DNA of 64,000 nucleotides from Loktanella sp. DSM 29012 (lineage in GTDB: Bacteria; Pseudomonadota; Alphaproteobacteria; Rhodobacterales; Rhodobacteraceae), in the NCBI RefSeq assembly GCF_900110705.1, contig NZ_FOEJ01000010.1, positions 1 to 64,000 on the forward strand, in the 5' to 3' direction. Below, in pieces: positions 47,551-57,000 of this stretch. Each line of letters begins with the position of its first letter. Within the stretch, counting starts at the first letter, position 1. The notes under the pieces were generated by a model that searched no databases, was not told the origin of the DNA, and worked only from the letters and a program-made list of their open reading frames with translations. Position numbers and translations under genes: made by a program.

Positions 47551-48981
47551 TGTCACCCATGTGCAATTCAGGAATGTCACTCTCCCTGCCGAGGAAAGCA
47601 AGCAGAGAGAGCAGACATGGGATGGGTGATGATGAGCGAGCGTGACTTCCACCGGATCGAGGTGTTGGCGCAGGTCGATGATGGACGGCTGAGTGTCCAG
47701 AACGGCGCGAATCTGTTGGACGTGACCAGACGACAGATGTTTCGGTTGCTCAAGACGTACCGCACCGAAGGCGGTGCCGGGATCCGGCACAAGGCGCGCG
47801 GCAAGGCACCGAACAACCAGATCCATGACGCCAAGCGCGACTATGCCGTAGCCCTGGTCAAAGAAAAGTATGAGGATTTCGGACCGACACTGGCGGCCGA
47901 GATGCTGGCGGAACATCACGGGTTCAAGGTCTCGCGTGAGACATTGCGCAATTGGATGCAGGACGCAGGTCTGTGGTTGTCACGCAAGCAGCGCCGCACG
48001 TTCCATCAACCCAGATCACGCCGGGAATGCTTTGGCGAGCTGATCCAGATCGACGGGTCGGATCATCGGTGGTTCGAGGATCGCGCCGATCCCTGCACCC
48101 TGCTCGTCTTCATCGACGATGCGACCAGCATGTTGATGGAATTGCGGTTCGTGCCCTCGGAAAGCACGTTCAGTTATTTCGAGGCCTTGGAAAGCTACCT
48201 GCTCAAATACGGTCGCCCCGTGGCGTTCTACAGCGACAAACACACGGTCTTTCGGGTTGCAAAGCCGAACCAGCACATGACGGGCATGACCCAATTCGGT
48301 CGCGCGCTGGCCGAGCTGAACATCGAGATACTGTGCGCCAATAGCAGCCAGGCCAAGGGCCGCGTAGAGCGCGCCAACCGCACTTTGCAGGATCGGCTGG
48401 TCAAGGAACTGCGTCTCGCAGGCGTATCCTCAATCGAAGACGGAAACGTTTTTCTTCCGGGCTTCATCGAGCGCTACAACGCCAAATTCGCAAAGGCCCC
48501 GGCCCGGTCGGACAATCTGCACCGGGCTTTGAACATTGAGCCGGATCGGTTCAGCGAAGTCTTCTGTCTGCGCGACAAACGCCATGTGACCAAGGATCTG
48601 ATGCTTAAATACGACCGCAAACGGATCAAGCTGGCGGTGAACGATCTAACACGCAGCCTCGCCGGGACATATGTCGATGTCTACGAACTGGCCGACGGGC
48701 GCATTCAGGTCCGCGCCAAAGGTGTCGCCCTACCCTACACGATCATGAACCCCGAGCGCCGGATAACCCACGCGGCGATTACCGAGAACAAGCACCTCAG
48801 CGCCGTCCTGGCCCATATCAAGGAGGAGCAGGACAAGGCTGCACCAAAGCCGAAGGTCAAACCGGTCAGTGCCAAGAACGGCTACGTCAAGAATGGTCGC
48901 TCACCCGGCCGACCGTCCAAGCTGGAGTTGCATTACGCGGCAAAGCGCGCAGCTGCGGCACAGACCGGCTCCGAAAGCTGA
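47551..48981 (+). mobile_element. ISNCY (IS1202-group) insertion sequence, copy 1; left end and transposase
   Basis: The left inverted repeat runs 47551-47580, starting TGTCACCCATG and ending CAGGAATGTCAC, followed by the transposase gene. No matching right end was found within 300 bases after the transposase stop; the only right-end-like sequence on that strand is at 55186-55216. The nominal right border is therefore unknown. Confidence 0.8.
47617..48981 (+). CDS. ISNCY-family transposase
   Basis: 454-aa DDE transposase. The N-terminal HTH (FHRIEVLAQVDDGRLSVQNGANLLDVTRRQMFRLLKTYRTEGGAGIRHKARG) is followed by an integrase core: first Asp in LIQIDGSDHRWF, second in FYSDKHTVF, Glu in GRVERANRTLQDRLVKEL. 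The C-terminal part is basic. The frame is intact, so it may be active. A near-identical but truncated copy occurs at 56437-57000. Confidence 0.92.
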   Translation: MGWVMMSERDFHRIEVLAQVDDGRLSVQNGANLLDVTRRQMFRLLKTYRTEGGAGIRHKARGKAPNNQIHDAKRDYAVALVKEKYEDFGPTLAAEMLAEHHGFKVSRETLRNWMQDAGLWLSRKQRRTFHQPRSRRECFGELIQIDGSDHRWFEDRADPCTLLVFIDDATSMLMELRFVPSESTFSYFEALESYLLKYGRPVAFYSDKHTVFRVAKPNQHMTGMTQFGRALAELNIEILCANSSQAKGRVERANRTLQDRLVKELRLAGVSSIEDGNVFLPGFIERYNAKFAKAPARSDNLHRALNIEPDRFSEVFCLRDKRHVTKDLMLKYDRKRIKLAVNDLTRSLAGTYVDVYELADGRIQVRAKGVALPYTIMNPERRITHAAITENKHLSAVLAHIKEEQDKAAPKPKVKPVSAKNGYVKNGRSPGRPSKLELHYAAKRAAAAQTGSES

Positions 48982-49403: not shown

Positions 49404-50006
49404 CTAGTGACGGCCAGTCGTCGGACATTCTATTTTCGAAGCGGCTTCAGAGAGCCCAGCCACGATTCGACCTCGCGCTGATGGGTTTGCGTTTACATAG
49501 ACAGGCGACGGGTGCGGAACTCGCAAGACGGGGACCGCGCAGAGGGGCGAGGCGCGTCCGGCAGAGCGTCCGGCCAGAACGACCGCGCGTAGCGCGGGCA
49601 GGAGCCCCAGAAGCGCCGGGAGATGGGCCAGCCCATCACGTAGTTCGGTCATGCGGGACGGTGTGTTGCGCACCGTGCCCGCAGGCGGCAGCCAGGGCAC
49701 GGCGTTCCAGATCACGATCCGCCGACGGGTCAGACCCGCTTCCGCCAAGAACCGCCGCAGGTTGCGCTGCGCCGGTGCAGGGTTGTCACACGAAACGAAC
49801 CGAGGCGCGTCCCCGCGCCGCGCGGGCCGCTCCAGCAGGATCAGGCATCGTGCCGTCGTACCGCCGTCGTGCGGATCGAACCATGGCACGTCGCGACCCT
49901 CCGCGCGCAGGCCCTCTGCATAGGTGTTGAGCGCGGTCATGTGCGGCGCATCCAAAGCTGAAAGGCGCCGGGACCTGGCGGCGGCGTTTGCAAGCTCCTC
50001 CGTCAT
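49404..50006 (-). CDS. Uracil-DNA glycosylase superfamily protein
   Basis: 200-aa protein of the uracil-DNA glycosylase fold. Motif A-like [33 protein letters not shown], a middle segment [13 protein letters not shown], and motif B as [13 protein letters not shown]. The Asp/Asn catalytic position of family 1 is not kept, so substrate and activity are uncertain. ATG 50006 overlaps the YeiH stop by four bases. The pairing with YeiH recurs by context and may be only operon hitch-hiking. Confidence 0.75.
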
Positions 50007-51019
50007 CCGCTCGGCCCGAGAAGAAGAACGAGACCAAGCCCGAGCGCGACGATGAAGAGCCACGACGCCGCCCCGAGGAGCGCGGGTCGCGCGCCCTCGG
50101 CCACGAGCTTGCGAATGTCCGTCTCGAGCCCCATCGCCGCGAGCGCCATGGCCAGAAGGAACTGGGTCAGGCCCTTGTGCCAAGGCTCCGCGGCCGTTGG
50201 CACGATCCCCAACGAAGCGATCCCCACCATGGCGACGAAGCCAAAAACGAACCACGGAATCGGGGCGCCGGCACCCGAGGCACCCTCGTTTCGCCGCCGG
50301 GCCAGGAGGCCGAGCGTCAGAACCAGAGGCGCCAGCATCATCACCCGGGTGAGCTTAGCGATCGTCCCCGTATGCCCGGCCGCATCGCCCTGTTGGAAGG
50401 CCGCGGCGACGACCTGAGCGACCTCGTGGATGACTGCACCGGTCCAGAGCCCGTAGGCATCGGGGCCGAGATGGAGCACCGTCGCCTCGACCACCGGGAT
50501 CAACACCATCGACAGCGAGCCGAACACCGTCACGCAGGCCACCGCATAGGCCACGTCCTCGTCGGAGGCCCGTGTGACGGTGTTGGTGGCGATCACGGCG
50601 GAGGCACCGCAGACCGAGGTGCCAGCGGCGATCAACTCGGTGAGCTTGGTGCCTACCCCGAGCTGCCGCCCGAGCCACTTGGTAAAAAGGAACGTCGCGA
50701 TGAGCGCGGCCGCGATAATACCCACGCCGCGCAGGCCGACCTCGATAACCTGACCGATAGTGAGTTGCAGGCCAAGCAGCACAACCCCCGCCTTCAAAAT
50801 GACCTTCAGAGATACGTTGACGCCGGGCTTCGCCGCGCCCGGCGTACCCATCATGTTGTGCAGCGCCATACCGATAAGGATCGACAGGATCAGCGGCGAG
50901 AGCGCGTCTATCCCGGGGACGAGGCGCAGTCCAAAGGCAGCGGCGGCAATCAGGGCGGTGAGGGCGAGGCCAGGCCAGATCGATCTGTTTGACCCCGCAT
51001 CGGCGGTGGTGTCTGTCAT
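50003..51019 (-). CDS. YeiH-family putative sulfate/sulfite exporter
   Basis: 338-aa inner-membrane protein with ten to eleven helices of the PSE (YeiH/YadS, Cons_hypoth698) family. Recognisable are [75 protein letters not shown] and the final [17 protein letters not shown] 51019 was chosen; an ATG at 51037 is possible. An ECF-type promoter sits 63 bases upstream. With sulfite oxidase across the divergent gap the probable job is sulfite or sulfate efflux. Confidence 0.85.
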
Positions 51020-51081
51020 TGAAGGCTTTCGTATCATTGTCGGAATATTGGCTTGCCCCACTCAGGGACACGTACCTAACA

Positions 51082-51108
51082 GACGTGCGACCCGGGCCGG
51101 GTATTCCC
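51082..51108 (-). promoter_or_regulatory. ECF-type promoter of yeiH
   Basis: Minus-strand GGGAATA (51102-51108) and CGTC (51082-51085) with exactly 16 bases between, 63 bases before ATG 51019. Same elements and spacing as the promoters at 51166 and 52114. Confidence 0.7.
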
Positions 51109-51165
51109 GCGGCTTTCCGTATTGCTCTTCGTGTCCTCTGATGACGCGACTGTGAGTCTCTGTCC

Positions 51166-51192
51166 GGGAATAGGCCGCGTCCTTTGGCCGTC
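51166..51192 (+). promoter_or_regulatory. ECF-type promoter of the AcfC-like gene
   Basis: GGGAATA (51166-51172), 16 bases, CGTC (51189-51192); 54 bases from the -10-like element to ATG 51247. Diverges from the yeiH promoter. Confidence 0.7.
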
Positions 51193-51246
51193 AGTATCTA
51201 TGACGGAGCCAAATCACCGTCGAAGATCCCCAATGAAGGAAGTTCC

Positions 51247-52068
51247 ATGATACGCCTCACTATGCTCATCGCCACCACGACACTGGTGGCTCTGCCGGCG
51301 GCTGCCGACGTGTTCTCCGACCGTGTCGGCAAAACGGACCTCGCCGATCCGAGTATCACCCACGCTCCCGAGGACGGCATCGTCAAGCTCTATGGCGCGG
51401 GCGGGCCGCATACCGCGTTCCAGAAGGTCGCCGATGTTTGGCAGGAAGAGACCGGCACGGAAGTCGAGATTGTTGCCGGGCCAGAAGCGGACTGGAGTGC
51501 TGACGCTCAGGCCGACGCAGACATCCTGTGGGGCACGTCGGAGCAGTCGATGACTGCGTTTCTACTGACCTATCCGGCCTTCGATCACGCCGATGTCGAG
51601 CCGATCTACATCCGCCCCGTCGTAATTGCCGTGAAAGCGGGCAATCCGAAGGGTATCGAAGGTTTCGAGGATCTCCTCGGCGAAGACATCCGCATTGTCG
51701 TGACCGAAGGGGCGGGCGTCTACAACACCTCCGGCACGGGGACCTGGGAGGACGTGGCGGGCCGTCTCGGGCGGCTCGACGACATTGCGGCGTTCCGGAA
51801 GAACATCGTCGCCTACGCACTTGGCTCGGGAGCGAGCTTTCAACAGTTCCAGGACCAGGATGCCGATGCGTGGATTACCTGGCCGAACTGGCCGCTGACC
51901 CATCAGGACGTACTGGAGATGGTGGAACTCGACGAAGCCCGGAAAATCTGGCGCGACGTCAACGTGGTGATTTCCCCGGACGCGGACCCGGCGGCGCAGG
52001 ACTTTCTGAACTTCCTCGTAACTGATGAGGCGCAGGAACTCATGGCCACCGAAGGCTGGCAGAGGTAA
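51247..52068 (+). CDS. AcfC-like periplasmic substrate-binding protein
   Basis: 273-aa exported binding protein. Signal peptide residues 1-20 (MIRLTMLIATTTLVALPAAA). The mature part follows the AcfC/PEB3 pattern: VKLYGAGGPHTAFQKVADVW, DILWGTSEQSMTAFL, VEPIYIRPVVIAVKAGNPKGIEGFEDLL, GVYNTSGTGTWEDVAG, FRKNIVAYA and DADAWITWPNWP, in a type II binding-protein fold. No ABC permease or ATPase gene adjoins it, so it may be a stand-alone anion scavenger or sensor. GAAGGA precedes ATG 51247. It shares the ECF-type promoter with yeiH and the sulfite oxidase. Confidence 0.85.
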   Translation: MIRLTMLIATTTLVALPAAADVFSDRVGKTDLADPSITHAPEDGIVKLYGAGGPHTAFQKVADVWQEETGTEVEIVAGPEADWSADAQADADILWGTSEQSMTAFLLTYPAFDHADVEPIYIRPVVIAVKAGNPKGIEGFEDLLGEDIRIVVTEGAGVYNTSGTGTWEDVAGRLGRLDDIAAFRKNIVAYALGSGASFQQFQDQDADAWITWPNWPLTHQDVLEMVELDEARKIWRDVNVVISPDADPAAQDFLNFLVTDEAQELMATEGWQR

Positions 52069-52113
52069 GCGCTCCCCGGCTAGGAACCTCGCGGCGGAAA
52101 TTCTTCGTCGCGA

Positions 52114-52140
52114 GGGAATAATCTGTGCGGGCAGACCGTC
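52114..52140 (+). promoter_or_regulatory. ECF-type promoter of the sulfite oxidase operon
   Basis: GGGAATA (52114-52120), 16 bases, CGTC (52137-52140); 45 bases from the -10-like element to ATG 52186. Confidence 0.7.
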
Positions 52141-52185
52141 TCTCTATTGAGTCCATTGCGGCTTTGAATATGGAGGGAGGACATC

Positions 52186-53367
52186 ATGACCACTATATAC
52201 CCGGTGAAACGTCGCCAATTCCTGATCGGCTCGGCCGGCCTTGCCGGCGCAGGCCTGACAGGCTTGCCGGCGATCGCGCAGGAAGGCGGAAAACTGCCCG
52301 CCTATGTCGCCTGGAAGGACGCGGACGACATGATCGTCCATACGTCCGAGACGCTTGAGACCACGCGCGCTGCGCAAGGCGATGCGCTCGTCACGCCGTC
52401 GAGCGATCTCTACATCCGCAACAACCTGCCCGCGCCTTCCGAGGAGATCGTCGCCGATCGCGACGCGTGGGAAGTGTCGATTGAAGGCGTCGGAGAACCC
52501 GGCACGATGACGCTCGGCGAGTTGAAGTTGCTCGGGTCGGAAACCGTGGTCGCGGTCCTGCAATGCTCGGGCAACGGGCGCGCGTTCTTCGATCACGAGA
52601 CGAGCGGGTCGCAATGGGCGACCGGCGCGGCCGGCAACGTGATCTGGACGGGGGTTCCGATCCGCGCCGTGGCCGAAGCCATGGGCGGCGTCGCGGGCGA
52701 CATGGCCTTCCTGACCGGAACCGGGGGCGAGGAGATCCCCGAGGGCCTGCCGCCCGAGAGCATTCAGGTCGAACGCTCCGTGCCCATGGAGGCGATGGAG
52801 CAGGCGATCCTGGCCTGGGACATGAACGGCGAGCCGATTCCGCTGGCCCATGGCGGTCCGCTGCGGCTGATCGTTCCGGGCTATTACGGCGTCAACAACG
52901 TCAAATATCTCAAACGGCTCGCTTTCACCCCTGAGGAGAGCCCTGCCAAGATTCAGCAGACCGGCTACCGCGTTCGTCCCGTGGGCGTCTCAGGCGACCC
53001 GTCCCAGCCCTCGATGTACGAGATGAGCGTCAAGTCATGGATTACCGGCCCGCTCGAGGATGCCGGAACCGGACAGGTCAGGATCGCAGGCCTCGCAATG
53101 GGGGGCACCAGTGCCGTAACGGGGGTGGAGGTCTCCACCGACGGCGGCGAGAGCTGGCAAGAGGCCGAACTCCTCGGGCCCGACATGGGCCGCTATGCTT
53201 GGCGGCCCTTCGTCCTCGTCGCAGATCTGGGCGCGGGGACCCACACGCTCACGAGCCGCGCCACCAACGGCAATGGCGACACCCAGCCCAAGGAGTTCGA
53301 GCCTAACGAGCGTGGCTACGGGCATAACGGTTGGCTCGGCCATGCCGTCGATGTGACGGTCGGATAA
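52186..53367 (+). CDS. Periplasmic sulfite oxidase (molybdenum, SorA-like)
   Basis: 393-aa molybdenum oxidoreductase oxidising sulfite to sulfate. A Tat signal is visible (KRRQFLIGSAGLAGAGLTGLPAIAQ, residues about 8-32). The molybdopterin Cys is in VLQCSGNGRAFF (near residue 125); WTGVPIRAVAEAMGG, AHGGPLRLIVPGYYGVNNVKYLKRL and the C-terminal dimer domain (TGVEVSTDGGESWQEAEL, YAWRPFVLVADLGAGTHTLTSRATNGNGDTQP) are typical. It is followed by a cytochrome c gene, the usual sorAB pair, and shares an ECF promoter motif with yeiH. Confidence 0.92.
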   Translation: MTTIYPVKRRQFLIGSAGLAGAGLTGLPAIAQEGGKLPAYVAWKDADDMIVHTSETLETTRAAQGDALVTPSSDLYIRNNLPAPSEEIVADRDAWEVSIEGVGEPGTMTLGELKLLGSETVVAVLQCSGNGRAFFDHETSGSQWATGAAGNVIWTGVPIRAVAEAMGGVAGDMAFLTGTGGEEIPEGLPPESIQVERSVPMEAMEQAILAWDMNGEPIPLAHGGPLRLIVPGYYGVNNVKYLKRLAFTPEESPAKIQQTGYRVRPVGVSGDPSQPSMYEMSVKSWITGPLEDAGTGQVRIAGLAMGGTSAVTGVEVSTDGGESWQEAELLGPDMGRYAWRPFVLVADLGAGTHTLTSRATNGNGDTQPKEFEPNERGYGHNGWLGHAVDVTVG

Positions 53368-53377
53368 GGAAGAGACG

Positions 53378-53740
53378 ATGAAAATTTATTCTAAGGAACT
53401 CCGACGGCACTCCCACGGGCGTCCGGCAGGCCTTTCGACCGTCCTCCTCGCGTTTCTGGCGACACCGCTTGCTGCGCAGGAGGCCGGTCCCGAGGCCGGC
53501 CGGACGATCTTCAACGAGACAGCGCAGCCCCAATGCGCGCTCTGCCACGTCCTCGCCGATGCGGAGGCCGAGGGCAAGGTGGGCCCGAACCTCGACGAGC
53601 TTCAGCCCAGCGTAGACCAGGTTCGTGTCGCCGTCACGAGCGGAGTGGGTGTCATGCCCGCCTTCGAGGGCACCTTGAGCGAGGAAGAGATCGAAACGGT
53701 CTCGGCATATGTTGCAAAGGTCGCGGGCGGCGGGGACTGA
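53378..53740 (+). CDS. Cytochrome c (SorB-like electron acceptor)
   Basis: 120-aa c-type cytochrome with an N-terminal signal (residues about 1-33). Haem motif CALCH (residues about 53-57), and the Met ligand in GVGVMPAFEGTLSEEEIETVSAYV. It is ten bases downstream of the sulfite oxidase gene and would pass electrons from the molybdenum enzyme to the respiratory chain. Confidence 0.9.
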   Translation: MKIYSKELRRHSHGRPAGLSTVLLAFLATPLAAQEAGPEAGRTIFNETAQPQCALCHVLADAEAEGKVGPNLDELQPSVDQVRVAVTSGVGVMPAFEGTLSEEEIETVSAYVAKVAGGGD

Positions 53741-53752
53741 ACCCTTCGCCCG

Positions 53753-54445
53753 TCAGACGCAGGTCTCGGTCTCCGAGACCTGCCGCGCGAAGGCAAGGCG
53801 GTCCGCGTTTCTGCCATCCGGACCGGTCACGGCCTTGAGATATGTCTCGATCGCCGCAAAGCGGTCGGGTTTCATGCCCTCGGCTTGGACGGCATAGCGC
53901 AGTCCACCGACAATCCAGACATCCGGCGCATCGGGTCCGTCCGCAGTCCCGTCCTCCAGCCTCAGAAGCGTAAGACGACAGGCATTGCGGCCCGCATAGT
54001 GGCCGGCGATGCCACCCTCTACCTCGCGCACGGCCACGAGCGCCAATCCGGCCGGGGACAAGTCGGGAAGTGGACCGCCCCCGCTGAGGCCCGCTTCGGC
54101 GAGGGCATCATCCGAGGTCGGAAAGCTTTGCCTAAGAAAGGTCTCGTGGATCGAGGTCAAGTCTGTTCGGTCTGCCCCGGGCATCGCGAGAAATGCGACT
54201 AGGGCCAGGGTTGCCGCGATCGCTCCGCCCCAAGCGACGGGACGCACCCGGACGGTCGATCCCGCATCGGCGACGGGACGCATTCGCGCCAAGCTTTCGG
54301 ATTGGGCATGCAGCTCTGCCGCGGCGGTGGCCAGGTCCGGTTCCCGGGCCAGACGTCTGGCAAAGGCGCGGCGCTCGGCCCCCCGCAGCTCGCCGTCGAG
54401 ATAGGCGTTCAGGGTCTCCCAGTCCTTGTCGCAGGGATAAGTCAC
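53753..54445 (-). CDS. Anti-sigma factor, membrane-spanning
   Basis: 230-aa predicted anti-sigma factor. Residues about 1-70 form an ASD-like sigma-binding region (LNAYLDGELRGAERRAFARRLAREPDLATAAAEL), then one membrane helix (residues about 75-92, VAWGGAIAATLALVAFLAM) and a periplasmic C-terminal part that may sense oxidised sulfur compounds. The start is GTG 54445 overlapping the sigma stop by four bases (GTGA), showing coupling. It converges on the cytochrome gene with a 12-base gap. Confidence 0.85.
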   Translation of the reverse strand: MTYPCDKDWETLNAYLDGELRGAERRAFARRLAREPDLATAAAELHAQSESLARMRPVADAGSTVRVRPVAWGGAIAATLALVAFLAMPGADRTDLTSIHETFLRQSFPTSDDALAEAGLSGGGPLPDLSPAGLALVAVREVEGGIAGHYAGRNACRLTLLRLEDGTADGPDAPDVWIVGGLRYAVQAEGMKPDRFAAIETYLKAVTGPDGRNADRLAFARQVSETETCV

Positions 54446-54939
54446 GGTGTTCTCCGCTTGATGCTCTCGACTCCGGTGATCCGGTCGCGAAGCGCGCGGC
54501 GTGCGCGGCTGATCCGGCTCATCACCGTTCCACGCGGCACGTCGATGACGCGCGCTGCCTCGTCGTACTTGAGGCCCAGAATGTCGATCAGGGTCAAAAT
54601 TTCTCGCATCTCGCTCGATAAGGTCGCAAAGGCCGCACGGACATGCATGTCCCGCTCGTGTTTCGGATCATCTGAGATCTCACCGGATAGACGTGTCTCG
54701 CGCTCGAGATATTCCCGGCGGACGCGGCGCTTGCGCAATTCGTCGATGTTCAGGTTGCGGATCGTCCGGAACATCCAGGGTCTGAACTCGCCAAGACGCC
54801 GCGGCGGCGAGTCCGCGCGCAGGGCCCGGGCCACGGCGTCCTGCACGAGATCGTCCCCATCCTCGCGCCGATCACTGATCCAGTAGGCATAGGCTTTCAG
54901 CTCCGGCAGAAGCCGCTCGATATGCCGACGTCGGCTCAT
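54442..54939 (-). CDS. ECF sigma-70 factor
   Basis: 165-aa ECF sigma factor. Region 2 (LPELKAYAYWISDRREDGDDLVQDAVARALRA.. FRPWMFRTIRNLNID) and region 4 (FATLSSEMREILTLIDILGLKYDEAARVIDVPRGTVMSRISRARRALRD) are complete. It is co-transcribed with its anti-sigma. By context it drives the three GGGAATA-N16-CGTC promoters in the same module. No copy of the motif was seen in front of its own gene, so it may not be autoregulated. Confidence 0.9.
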   Translation of the reverse strand: MSRRRHIERLLPELKAYAYWISDRREDGDDLVQDAVARALRADSPPRRLGEFRPWMFRTIRNLNIDELRKRRVRREYLERETRLSGEISDDPKHERDMHVRAAFATLSSEMREILTLIDILGLKYDEAARVIDVPRGTVMSRISRARRALRDRITGVESIKRRTP

Positions 54940-55251: not shown

Positions 55252-56356
55252 GATTCACAAATGAAGTGCAAGTTCTGTATCAAAACAGAGTATTGCATGG
55301 AGTTGATCAATGGGACGCACCTACTCTCACCTGAGCCTGGAAGAACGCCGCAGGATTGCCAAGTGGCGTGAAGCCAAAGTGCCGATCGCAGAGATAGCCG
55401 ATCGCCTGGGCCGCGATGCATCGACTGTCTATCGGGATCTGCGTCGCAACCACTACGATGACAAGGAACTACCCGCGTTGAACGGCTACTACGCTTTGAG
55501 CGCACAGGACATGTACGAACGCCGCCGTGCAGTACATTGCAAACTGGTCCTGCATCCCCAGGTTATGGCCGCTGTACGTGCGGGTCTGGATGCCGGGTGG
55601 TCACCGGAACAGATCGCCGGTCGGATGCGCTTGGAATGCCATAGTGTCCGCGTGAGCCACGAGACGATCTATCGCTTCGCCTACTCGAAAGGCGGTCTTG
55701 CCGAACAGTTCTACAGGCACCTGCCGGAACATCGCAAACGCCGCAGGCCACGTGGGCAACGGCGGCACAACCGCACCCATATTTTTGAGGCCCAAAGTCT
55801 GTCTTACAGGCCTGAGAGCATCGGCGAGCGCACGGAGTTCGGCTACTGGGAATGCGATCTGATGATGTTTCGCAAAGAGCATGGAAAGGTGAATGTGACA
55901 TCCTTGGTGGAACGCGTCAGCCGCTATACCGTCGTCATGCGCAATGAGGACCGCCAGTCAAAACCGATCATGGAAGCCTTAGTTAAAGGTCTGGCGACCC
56001 TGCCCGCGGATGCGCGTCAATCAATCACCTTCGATCGCGGGACAGAGTTCTCAGCTTGGCAGCAGTTAAAAGACGGGATCGGCGCAGACGCTTGGTTTTG
56101 CGATCCGCAGGCACCCTGGCAGAAAGGAACGGTCGAGAACACGAACAGCAGATTGCGCCGCTACCTTCCCAGATCGACGCCACCGACAGCGCTGACAAAT
56201 CGATATTTAAGGTCGATTTGCCATCGCCTCAATGCAACGCCGCGCAAGTGTCTCGGCTACCGGACACCAGCAGAGATCTTCGAAAGCCAGCTGATGGAAA
56301 TTCAGAACCGATTGGATTAAAATAGGATATCAGAACTGGCACTTCACCGTGAGTTC
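55252..56356 (+). mobile_element. IS30-family insertion sequence
   Basis: Bounded by imperfect inverted repeats. TGAAGTGCAAGTTCTG (55262-55277) matches the reverse complement of 56331-56346 at 15 of 16 positions. It is inserted between the orphan ISNCY end and ISNCY copy 2; outer bases are approximate. Confidence 0.8.
55310..56320 (+). CDS. IS30-family transposase
   Basis: 336-aa transposase with intact frame. N-terminal HTH (SHLSLEERRRIAKWREAKVPIAEIADRLGRDASTVYRDLRRN), then the DDE core: Asp in GYWECDLMMF, Asp in ITFDRGTEF, and Glu in WQKGTVENTNSRLRRYLPR. The GCxxY-type end LNATPRKCLGYRTPAEIF is typical for IS30. Confidence 0.94.
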   Translation: MGRTYSHLSLEERRRIAKWREAKVPIAEIADRLGRDASTVYRDLRRNHYDDKELPALNGYYALSAQDMYERRRAVHCKLVLHPQVMAAVRAGLDAGWSPEQIAGRMRLECHSVRVSHETIYRFAYSKGGLAEQFYRHLPEHRKRRRPRGQRRHNRTHIFEAQSLSYRPESIGERTEFGYWECDLMMFRKEHGKVNVTSLVERVSRYTVVMRNEDRQSKPIMEALVKGLATLPADARQSITFDRGTEFSAWQQLKDGIGADAWFCDPQAPWQKGTVENTNSRLRRYLPRSTPPTALTNRYLRSICHRLNATPRKCLGYRTPAEIFESQLMEIQNRLD

Positions 56357-56373: not shown

Positions 56374-57000
56374 TGTCCCACATCTGCAAAGTAGAAGTGT
56401 CACACTTCCCTGTTGAAGCAGGATTGGAGTGTGGCCGTGGGATTGGTGATGATGAGCGAGCGCGACTTCCACCGGGTCAAGGTGTTGGCGCAGGTCGATG
56501 ATGGACGGCTGAGCGTCCAGAACGGCGCGAACCTGTTGGGCGTGACCAGGCGGCAGATGTTTCGGTTGCTTAAAACGTATCGCACCGAGGGTGGCGCCGG
56601 CATCCGACACAAGGCGCGCGGCAAGGCACCGAACAACCAGATCCATGCCGCCAAGCGCGACTATGCCGTGGCCCCGGTCATAGAAAAGTATGAGGATTTC
56701 GGACCGACGCTGGCGGCCGAGATGCTGGCGGAACATCACGGGTTCAAGGTTTCGCGTGAGACATTGCGCAAATGGATGCAGGACGCAGGTCTGTGGTTGT
56801 CCAGTAAGCAGCGTCGGACATTCCATCAGCCCAGATCACGCCGGGAATGCTTTGGCGAGTTGATCCAGATCGACGGGGCGGATCATCGCTGGTTCGAGGA
56901 TCGCGCGGATCCCTGCACTCTGCTCGTCTTCATCGACGATGCGACCAGCATGTTGATGGAATTGCGGTTCGTTCCCTCGGAAAGCACGTTCAGCTACTGA
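56374..57000 (+). pseudogene. ISNCY copy 2, truncated transposase remnant
   Basis: Left repeat at 56374-56403 (TGTCCCACATC to AGTGTCAC), then a transposase frame from GTG 56437 that matches copy 1 over about 185 residues with roughly ten differences (for example D/G, N/K, S/A). The match stops after ESTFSY; a stop follows at 57000. The second Asp and Glu of the DDE triad are lost, so it is inactive. Sequence after the break is unrelated to copy 1, indicating a deletion or another insertion. Confidence 0.9.

Follow-up and report, generated by a model that had tools for sequence, protein, structure and literature searches.

A predicted RpoE4-type ECF26 sulfite stress circuit in Loktanella sp. 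DSM 29012 with sulfite oxidation and putative export genes in one block

The 64,000-nucleotide window from Loktanella sp. DSM 29012 that was analyzed here covers nearly all of its 67.6-kb contig and contains a block of genes (positions 50003-54939) that probably makes up a complete circuit of the RpoE4/ECF26 type for responding to sulfite stress, in which an extracytoplasmic function (ECF) sigma factor would govern the oxidation and the export of sulfite together. From left to right, the block consists of a yeiH-like gene on the minus strand, an acfC/PEB3-like gene, sorT and sorU on the plus strand, and an anti-sigma gene and the ECF sigma gene on the minus strand. The block belongs to the RpoE4-type ECF26 sulfite circuits, which have been described in soil bacteria, and is not new in kind. 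What appears to be new is the membership of yeiH in the regulon, a synonymously conserved promoter-like site inside the sigma gene, and a pair of cysteines restricted, among the sets compared, to one clade of anti-sigma factors. An earlier, sequence-only reading of this DNA had proposed a local ECF stress circuit that joins a sulfite oxidase to an exporter-like protein and an orphan binding protein. This is still the best reading of the block, but the circuit was already known in kind and the enzyme had been misnamed.

The strict motif, GGGAATA-N16-CGTC, was found four times in the window, compared with a mean of 0.02 and a maximum of 1 in 100 dinucleotide shuffles. Exact matches with the appearance of ECF26-type promoters are located before yeiH (51082..51108, minus strand), before the acfC-like gene (51166..51192, plus strand) and before sorT-sorU (52114..52140, plus strand), with the end of the -10 element 62, 54 and 45 bases, respectively, from the likely ATG. 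These three sites and their 16-base spacing had been noted in the sequence-only reading at distances of 45-63 bases and proved to be exact. A fourth exact match, which that reading had missed, lies inside the sigma gene (54690..54716, minus strand), 245 bases before the start of the anti-sigma gene. The genome-wide search that had been suggested as a check covered 3.42 Mb in 21 contigs and gave six strict matches, four of them in the sulfite block and the remaining two inside open reading frames (ORFs). With GGAATA in place of GGGAATA, eight matches were found in the genome, and one was found with the reversed control.

The products of the block were identified with profile models. SorT, the catalytic subunit of the sulfite dehydrogenase (52186..53367, plus strand), scored 638.9 bits with NF052247 (cut-off 570), and the c-type cytochrome SorU (53378..53740, plus strand) scored 115.6 bits with NF052248 (cut-off 100). 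The enzyme had previously been named SorAB, and this identity was rejected as the SorA model gave 196.2 bits against a cut-off of 600. The YeiH-like membrane protein (50003..51061, minus strand) is a putative sulfite/sulfate exporter that scored 261.2 bits with PF03601 (cut-off 24.5) and 183.5 bits with TIGR00698, which is under the cut-off of 232.6; the exporter role is a prediction. Its likely ATG is at 51019, following the annotation of Roseivivax marinus, and its earliest possible start is the GTG at 51061. The AcfC/PEB3-like periplasmic binding protein (51247..52068, plus strand; PF13531) matched the PDB profiles of PEB3 (3e-69) and AcfC (1e-67), which places it in this sequence family. 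The N-termini of SorT, SorU and the AcfC-like protein resemble export signals as judged by eye, and SorT has been published as periplasmic. The anti-sigma gene (53753..54445, minus strand) overlaps the end of the sigma gene (54442..54939, minus strand), and its product aligns with anti-sigmas of the EcfR4 type. This protein has one hydrophobic segment (about residues 72-92, by eye) and a C-terminal, probably periplasmic domain; its score with zf-HC2 (PF13490) was 17 bits, beneath the gathering score of 22.2.

The sigma factor falls in the RpoE4-like (ECF26) clade, an assignment made from a FastTree tree. All 42 of the sulfite-oxidase-linked sigmas, including RpoE4 of Sinorhizobium (S.) meliloti and with the RpoE1-like ones set aside, were placed in one clade (42/42, FastTree support 0.81). 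The block has the features of an RpoE4-type ECF26 circuit, namely a sigma of this clade, an adjacent anti-sigma, a SorT/SorU gene and a GGAAT/CGTC site before the enzyme. Control of sulfite oxidases by ECF26 sigmas through a GGAAT/CGTC promoter has been reported in S. meliloti and Starkeya (St.) novella (PMC3511301, PMC6527743). According to Bastiat et al. 2012 (PMC3511301), RpoE1 and RpoE4 of S. meliloti, both of the ECF26 group, respond to compounds that generate sulfite and regulate sorT; Sulfitobacter and Roseovarius were noted there to have the same arrangement. The GGAAT/CGTC consensus was given by Tan et al. 2019 (PMC6527743), who also name a marine Rhodobacterales group, and a list of mapped promoters is found in Lang et al. 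2018 (PMC6180224).

A SorT alignment was run against a genome collection, and of the relatives obtained, at least 551 in number, the best 80 were kept. Among these 80 loci, the core motif, defined as GGAATA-N15..17-CGT[CT], preceded sorT in every locus that has an ECF26-type sigma gene nearby (17 of 17) and in 1 of the 63 loci that have none; reversed and complemented control patterns were found in 0 of 80. The strict motif accounted for 9 of the 17, and the sole motif-bearing locus without an ECF26 neighbor (L044) is on a contig that stops soon after sorU. A second sample was chosen blind to sulfite genes by searching 386 alphaproteobacterial genomes with the sigma alignment and fetching 120 loci, which were the top of the matches listed, down to about E 1.4e-40. 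Nineteen of these 120 ECF loci contained a sulfite-oxidase-like gene, which was preceded by the core motif in 17 cases, by a looser form in 18 and by the strict form in 3, with one locus (L131) having none. Within the family, close sigma relatives at 1e-30 were found in 6 of 248 genomes and SorT at 1e-100 in 3 of 248, the own genome being included in both counts. Conservation of the motif in orthologous loci, another check that had been suggested, is seen for sorT, while for yeiH and acfC it draws on few lineages.

Upstream of yeiH, the site is also present in R. marinus (L026), in L036, in Paracoccus albicereus (L038) with an altered spacer, and in Fulvimarina (L039). Fulvimarina has the same set of genes in a different order, with one site each heading acfC-sigma-anti-sigma, yeiH and sorT. 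When 14 yeiH loci were examined, a LysR gene stood beside yeiH in 0 of the 5 with the ECF site and in 8 of the 9 without it, L045 having neither the site nor a LysR neighbor. No match to two LysR seeds was found near yeiH in the window. The simplest reading of these neighborhoods is a switch of regulator at yeiH, from LysR to ECF. The acfC site of relatives is in the same place in the form of GGGAATA, GGAATA or GGGAAGG variants, the last of these occurring in Sulfitobacter and Aminobacter, and the copy in Paracoccus albicereus has CGTT. The published SMc02156 promoter was located directly before the S. meliloti ORF that is 63% identical to the AcfC-like protein, and this comparison identifies the acfC-like gene as orthologous to SMc02156, which is reported to be controlled by RpoE1 and RpoE4 and to co-purify with SorT (PMC3511301). 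AcfC-like proteins at E <= 1e-55 were found in 1 of the 386 alphaproteobacterial genomes, which is the own genome itself, and YeiH at 1e-90 in 7 of 386 (own included), which keeps the numbers behind the conservation of yeiH and acfC low. As a part of the circuit that we consider probable as a whole, yeiH would belong to the ECF regulon, and this would be a new finding, as no publication tying yeiH to the circuit was found in the open-access literature.

The site inside the sigma gene was first viewed as a coincidence of coding, a view that was overturned by tests of synonymous codons. The sigma branch of the window comprises 24 distinct genes and is monophyletic (FastTree support 0.99). In 20 of these 24 the core motif occupies an identical position within the gene, and it was found in 0 of 24 in the 300 bases upstream. 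Among sigma genes without a nearby sulfite oxidase (n=106), the motif was internal in none and upstream in 22, and in the S. meliloti-like branch (n=19), 4 genes had it upstream and 2 had it internally at another place. For the recoding test, 18 non-redundant genes (below 85% nucleotide identity) were recoded with the codon usage of their own locus. The site was carried by 14 of the 18 genes, compared with 0.54 expected and a maximum of 5 in 4000 random recodings. The codons of E76 and R83 were identical in all pairs with the same residue (106/106 and 105/105, respectively), compared with 38.8% for the rest of the ORF. GAA (15/15) and CGT (15/15) were fixed at the -35 and -10 bases, although CGT makes up about 10-28% of the arginine codons of a locus, and the spacer codons vary across the branch. 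High synonymous conservation was also seen at S141, S144 and R142. Serine codons are split into AGC and TCN, and this was taken as the reason for the conservation at S141 and S144, not as a signal. The intragenic site is likely to serve as a promoter from which the sigma drives transcription of the anti-sigma gene. For ecfR6 in S. meliloti, Lang et al. 2018 (PMC6180224) proposed an RpoE6-dependent promoter located inside rpoE6. The sigma gene of G141 likewise carries an internal motif. In two loci of the other sulfite-oxidase-linked branch (L154 and L155), the core motif is inside the sigma gene at nucleotides 284 and 290, and this is perhaps an independent intragenic promoter.

The anti-sigma factors that are linked to sulfite oxidases share two cysteines, one of them 60-110 residues before the end of the protein (in G-R-N-A-C in the window) and the other in the last 8 residues. 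In the window these are Cys156 (codon 53978..53980, minus strand) and Cys229 (codon 53759..53761, minus strand), the latter adjoining the C-terminus. Both are invariant in 43 of 43 distinct sequences from sulfite-oxidase-linked pairs, where they are 2 of 7 columns without exception, and the pair was present in 0 of 50 sequences from other ECF26-type pairs. Identical sequences were counted once. In the linked set, L131 was excluded as an exception and L031 was represented by its annotated anti-sigma; the anti-sigma of L177 has the pair and stands outside the 43. The comparison set was made up of 45 non-linked sequences from the 120 sampled loci, of which 13 yielded no anti-sigma ORF, with the rest from other loci; ORFs outside 215-310 residues and loci without an anti-sigma-like ORF were excluded. 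The pair is present in EcfR4 of S. meliloti, while EcfR1 lacks both cysteines and EcfR3 has one cysteine and none near the end, these two proteins having been identified through published promoters. Sulfite could be read most simply by these two invariant, probably periplasmic cysteines. Cleavage of disulfides by sulfite is general chemistry. No cysteine sensor in this anti-sigma clade was found among literature titles, and the mechanism of release of these anti-sigmas was called unknown by Tan et al. 2019 (PMC6527743).

In the proposed circuit, the membrane anti-sigma would hold the sigma factor until sulfite arrives in the periplasm, and its conserved domain should face the same compartment as SorT, SorU and the AcfC-like protein. 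The freed sigma would then fire three promoters. Expression of yeiH would move sulfite out of the cytoplasm, expression of the acfC-like gene would allow periplasmic binding of a sulfur oxyanion, perhaps for SorT, and expression of sorT-sorU would convert sulfite to sulfate with the electrons passing to a cytochrome. By firing the fourth promoter in its own gene, the sigma would give rise to extra anti-sigma, and the response would be shut off. A more detailed version, in which sulfite cleaves a disulfide of the two cysteines (sulfitolysis, giving an S-sulfonate) and so frees the sigma, the intragenic anti-sigma-only promoter replaces autoregulation of the sigma gene to give a pulse-like, self-limiting response, and the circuit has captured a yeiH that was formerly under LysR control, is tentative, and we regard it as less likely than not.

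Other explanations would account for some of these observations. The sites before yeiH and acfC could be accidental, with sorT alone being regulated, as two yeiH-bearing clusters (L029 and L045) lack the site. This is very unlikely, given the exact 11-base matches at promoter distance before both genes, the retention of sites in Paracoccus albicereus and Fulvimarina under a changed spacer or another gene order, and the standing of the S. meliloti acfC orthologue as an experimental RpoE1/RpoE4 target (PMC3511301), the mapped promoter of which was found in place. A second, RpoE1-like ECF26-type sigma elsewhere in the genome could drive some of the promoters, and acfC is indeed beside an RpoE1-like pair on Sulfitobacter and Aminobacter plasmids. 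However, only one other genome match to the sigma profile was obtained at 1e-30, and the ORF adjoining it was read by eye as PhyR-like, that is, of the general stress response, which makes this explanation most unlikely. As for the fourth site, it lies within a conserved coding stretch and the matching residues are kept in most of the branch, so that it might be a by-product of protein conservation (R-R-E-Y...R-L) and no promoter. We regard this as unlikely because a single synonymous codon is used at the -35 bases and another at the -10 bases while the spacer codons vary, the site is retained in L117 and L120 despite different adjacent residues, and the arrangement proposed for rpoE6-ecfR6 (PMC6180224) is alike.

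The chances are evenly balanced that the two cysteines do no more than form a structural disulfide or act as a general redox sensor, with sulfite being sensed through the AcfC-like protein, another partner or damage. Invariant periplasmic cysteines are often structural, other anti-sigmas beside sorT do without the pair, and the AcfC-like protein is itself a candidate for binding the ligand. On the other hand, the pair is missing from the homologous anti-sigmas of non-sulfite pairs, with EcfR1 and EcfR3 from the very species of EcfR4 among them, and acfC is missing from the pair-bearing clusters of the ECF sample (0/120 loci). Several observations weigh against the circuit as it is proposed here, including the two yeiH clusters without a site. 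Because the linked sigmas fall into a single clade, the counts across loci do not represent independent events, and the cysteine pair is one inherited trait that was kept through deep divergence rather than the result of many independent gains. Three of the five site-bearing yeiH loci (the window, Roseivivax and L036) are near-identical, which leaves about three lineages with Paracoccus albicereus and Fulvimarina, and yeiH and acfC were found in 0 of the 120 sampled ECF loci, so their linkage to the circuit is rare. The core motif is missing from 4 of the 24 sigma genes of the branch (L022, L032, L039 and L119); in L039, the sigma gene sits behind the acfC site. In L131, an RpoE1-like pair stands next to Mo-oxidoreductase genes that are 34-38% identical to the query enzyme, and both the motif and the two cysteines are missing. 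Of 19 selected loci, 13 had a distant sigma beside sorT, and the anti-sigmas of these 13, which are of other types (a Marinobacter/Pseudomonas type in 8 loci and a second type, mostly from beta-proteobacteria, in 5), lack the pair, which is therefore no general rule of sulfite control. Added sulfite gave no induction in Bastiat et al. (PMC3511301) and induction in Tan et al. (PMC6527743). For the anti-sigma, AlphaFold gave a model of moderate confidence, with a predicted local distance difference test (pLDDT) score of 71.8 and a predicted template modeling (pTM) score of 0.56, and a Foldseek search of this model against the PDB gave no match at E <= 0.001.

The predicted circuit is similar to RpoE4-EcfR4-sorT-sorU-azu2 of S. 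meliloti in its sigma clade, its anti-sigma with a cysteine pair, its SorT/SorU target and its GGAAT(A)/CGTC promoter. It differs in that yeiH and acfC are in the same block, no pseudoazurin gene was seen in the block, and no counterpart of the promoter upstream of S. meliloti rpoE4 was found before its sigma gene, which has a site inside it instead. SMc02156 is 63-64% identical to the AcfC-like protein of the window and also has an ECF26-type promoter upstream, but in the S. meliloti record searched it lies at a large distance from sorT, and its expression depends mainly on RpoE1 (PMC3511301). In Salmonella, a protein of the YeiH family is required to withstand sulfite and is controlled by YeiE, a sulfite-binding LysR regulator (PMC12880088), whereas yeiH in the window has an ECF-type site and no LysR gene was found beside it. 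The rpoE6-ecfR6 locus shares the proposed promoter for the anti-sigma within the sigma ORF (PMC6180224); it is one case in one species, in contrast to the branch-wide synonymous conservation without an upstream site seen here, and EcfR6 was not found in the S. meliloti record searched. Members of the AcfC/PEB3/Paa sequence family are known for colonization, chemotaxis or adhesion, while the AcfC-like protein of the window is tied to a predicted sulfite regulon.

The nearest published copy of the block that was found is on a Roseivivax marinus plasmid, with 93% identity across 91% of the query. An ORF at 49404-50255 (minus strand) overlaps the end of yeiH, and the gene behind yeiH in R. marinus has been assigned by annotation to the uracil-DNA glycosylase family. 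The sulfite module is flanked by two ORFs that resemble transposases, one at 47617-48981 and the other, which is shorter, at 56413-57000. A direct repeat of 300 bases, 89% identical (47596-47895 and 56416-56715), lies within them, and an IS30-like ORF, named by eye, is at 55310-56320. The module may be mobile as one unit. Among the relatives, the conjugative Aminobacter plasmid pUSP5 (L029, 31.6 kb) has two ECF/anti-sigma pairs, sorT-sorU-pseudoazurin, acfC, YeiH and a LysR gene, and it also encodes cytochrome bd and a chromate efflux protein. On two conjugative Sulfitobacter plasmids (L027 and L028), acfC immediately follows RpoE1-like sigma and anti-sigma genes that have a motif of their own upstream, and one cluster thus contains two ECF26-type circuits. 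In S. meliloti Ak57 (L030), the acfC-like gene, an orthologue of SMc02156, runs into an IS30 element close to its end.

The presence of the cysteine pair in EcfR4, the partner of the sulfite-responsive RpoE4, and its absence from EcfR1 and EcfR3 point to two candidate residues for the sensing of sulfite. If the intragenic site is a true promoter, then coding sequence can carry conserved feedback in a sigma operon. The link of yeiH to the predicted circuit provides a candidate for the sulfite exporter that was called not known by Bastiat et al. (PMC3511301).

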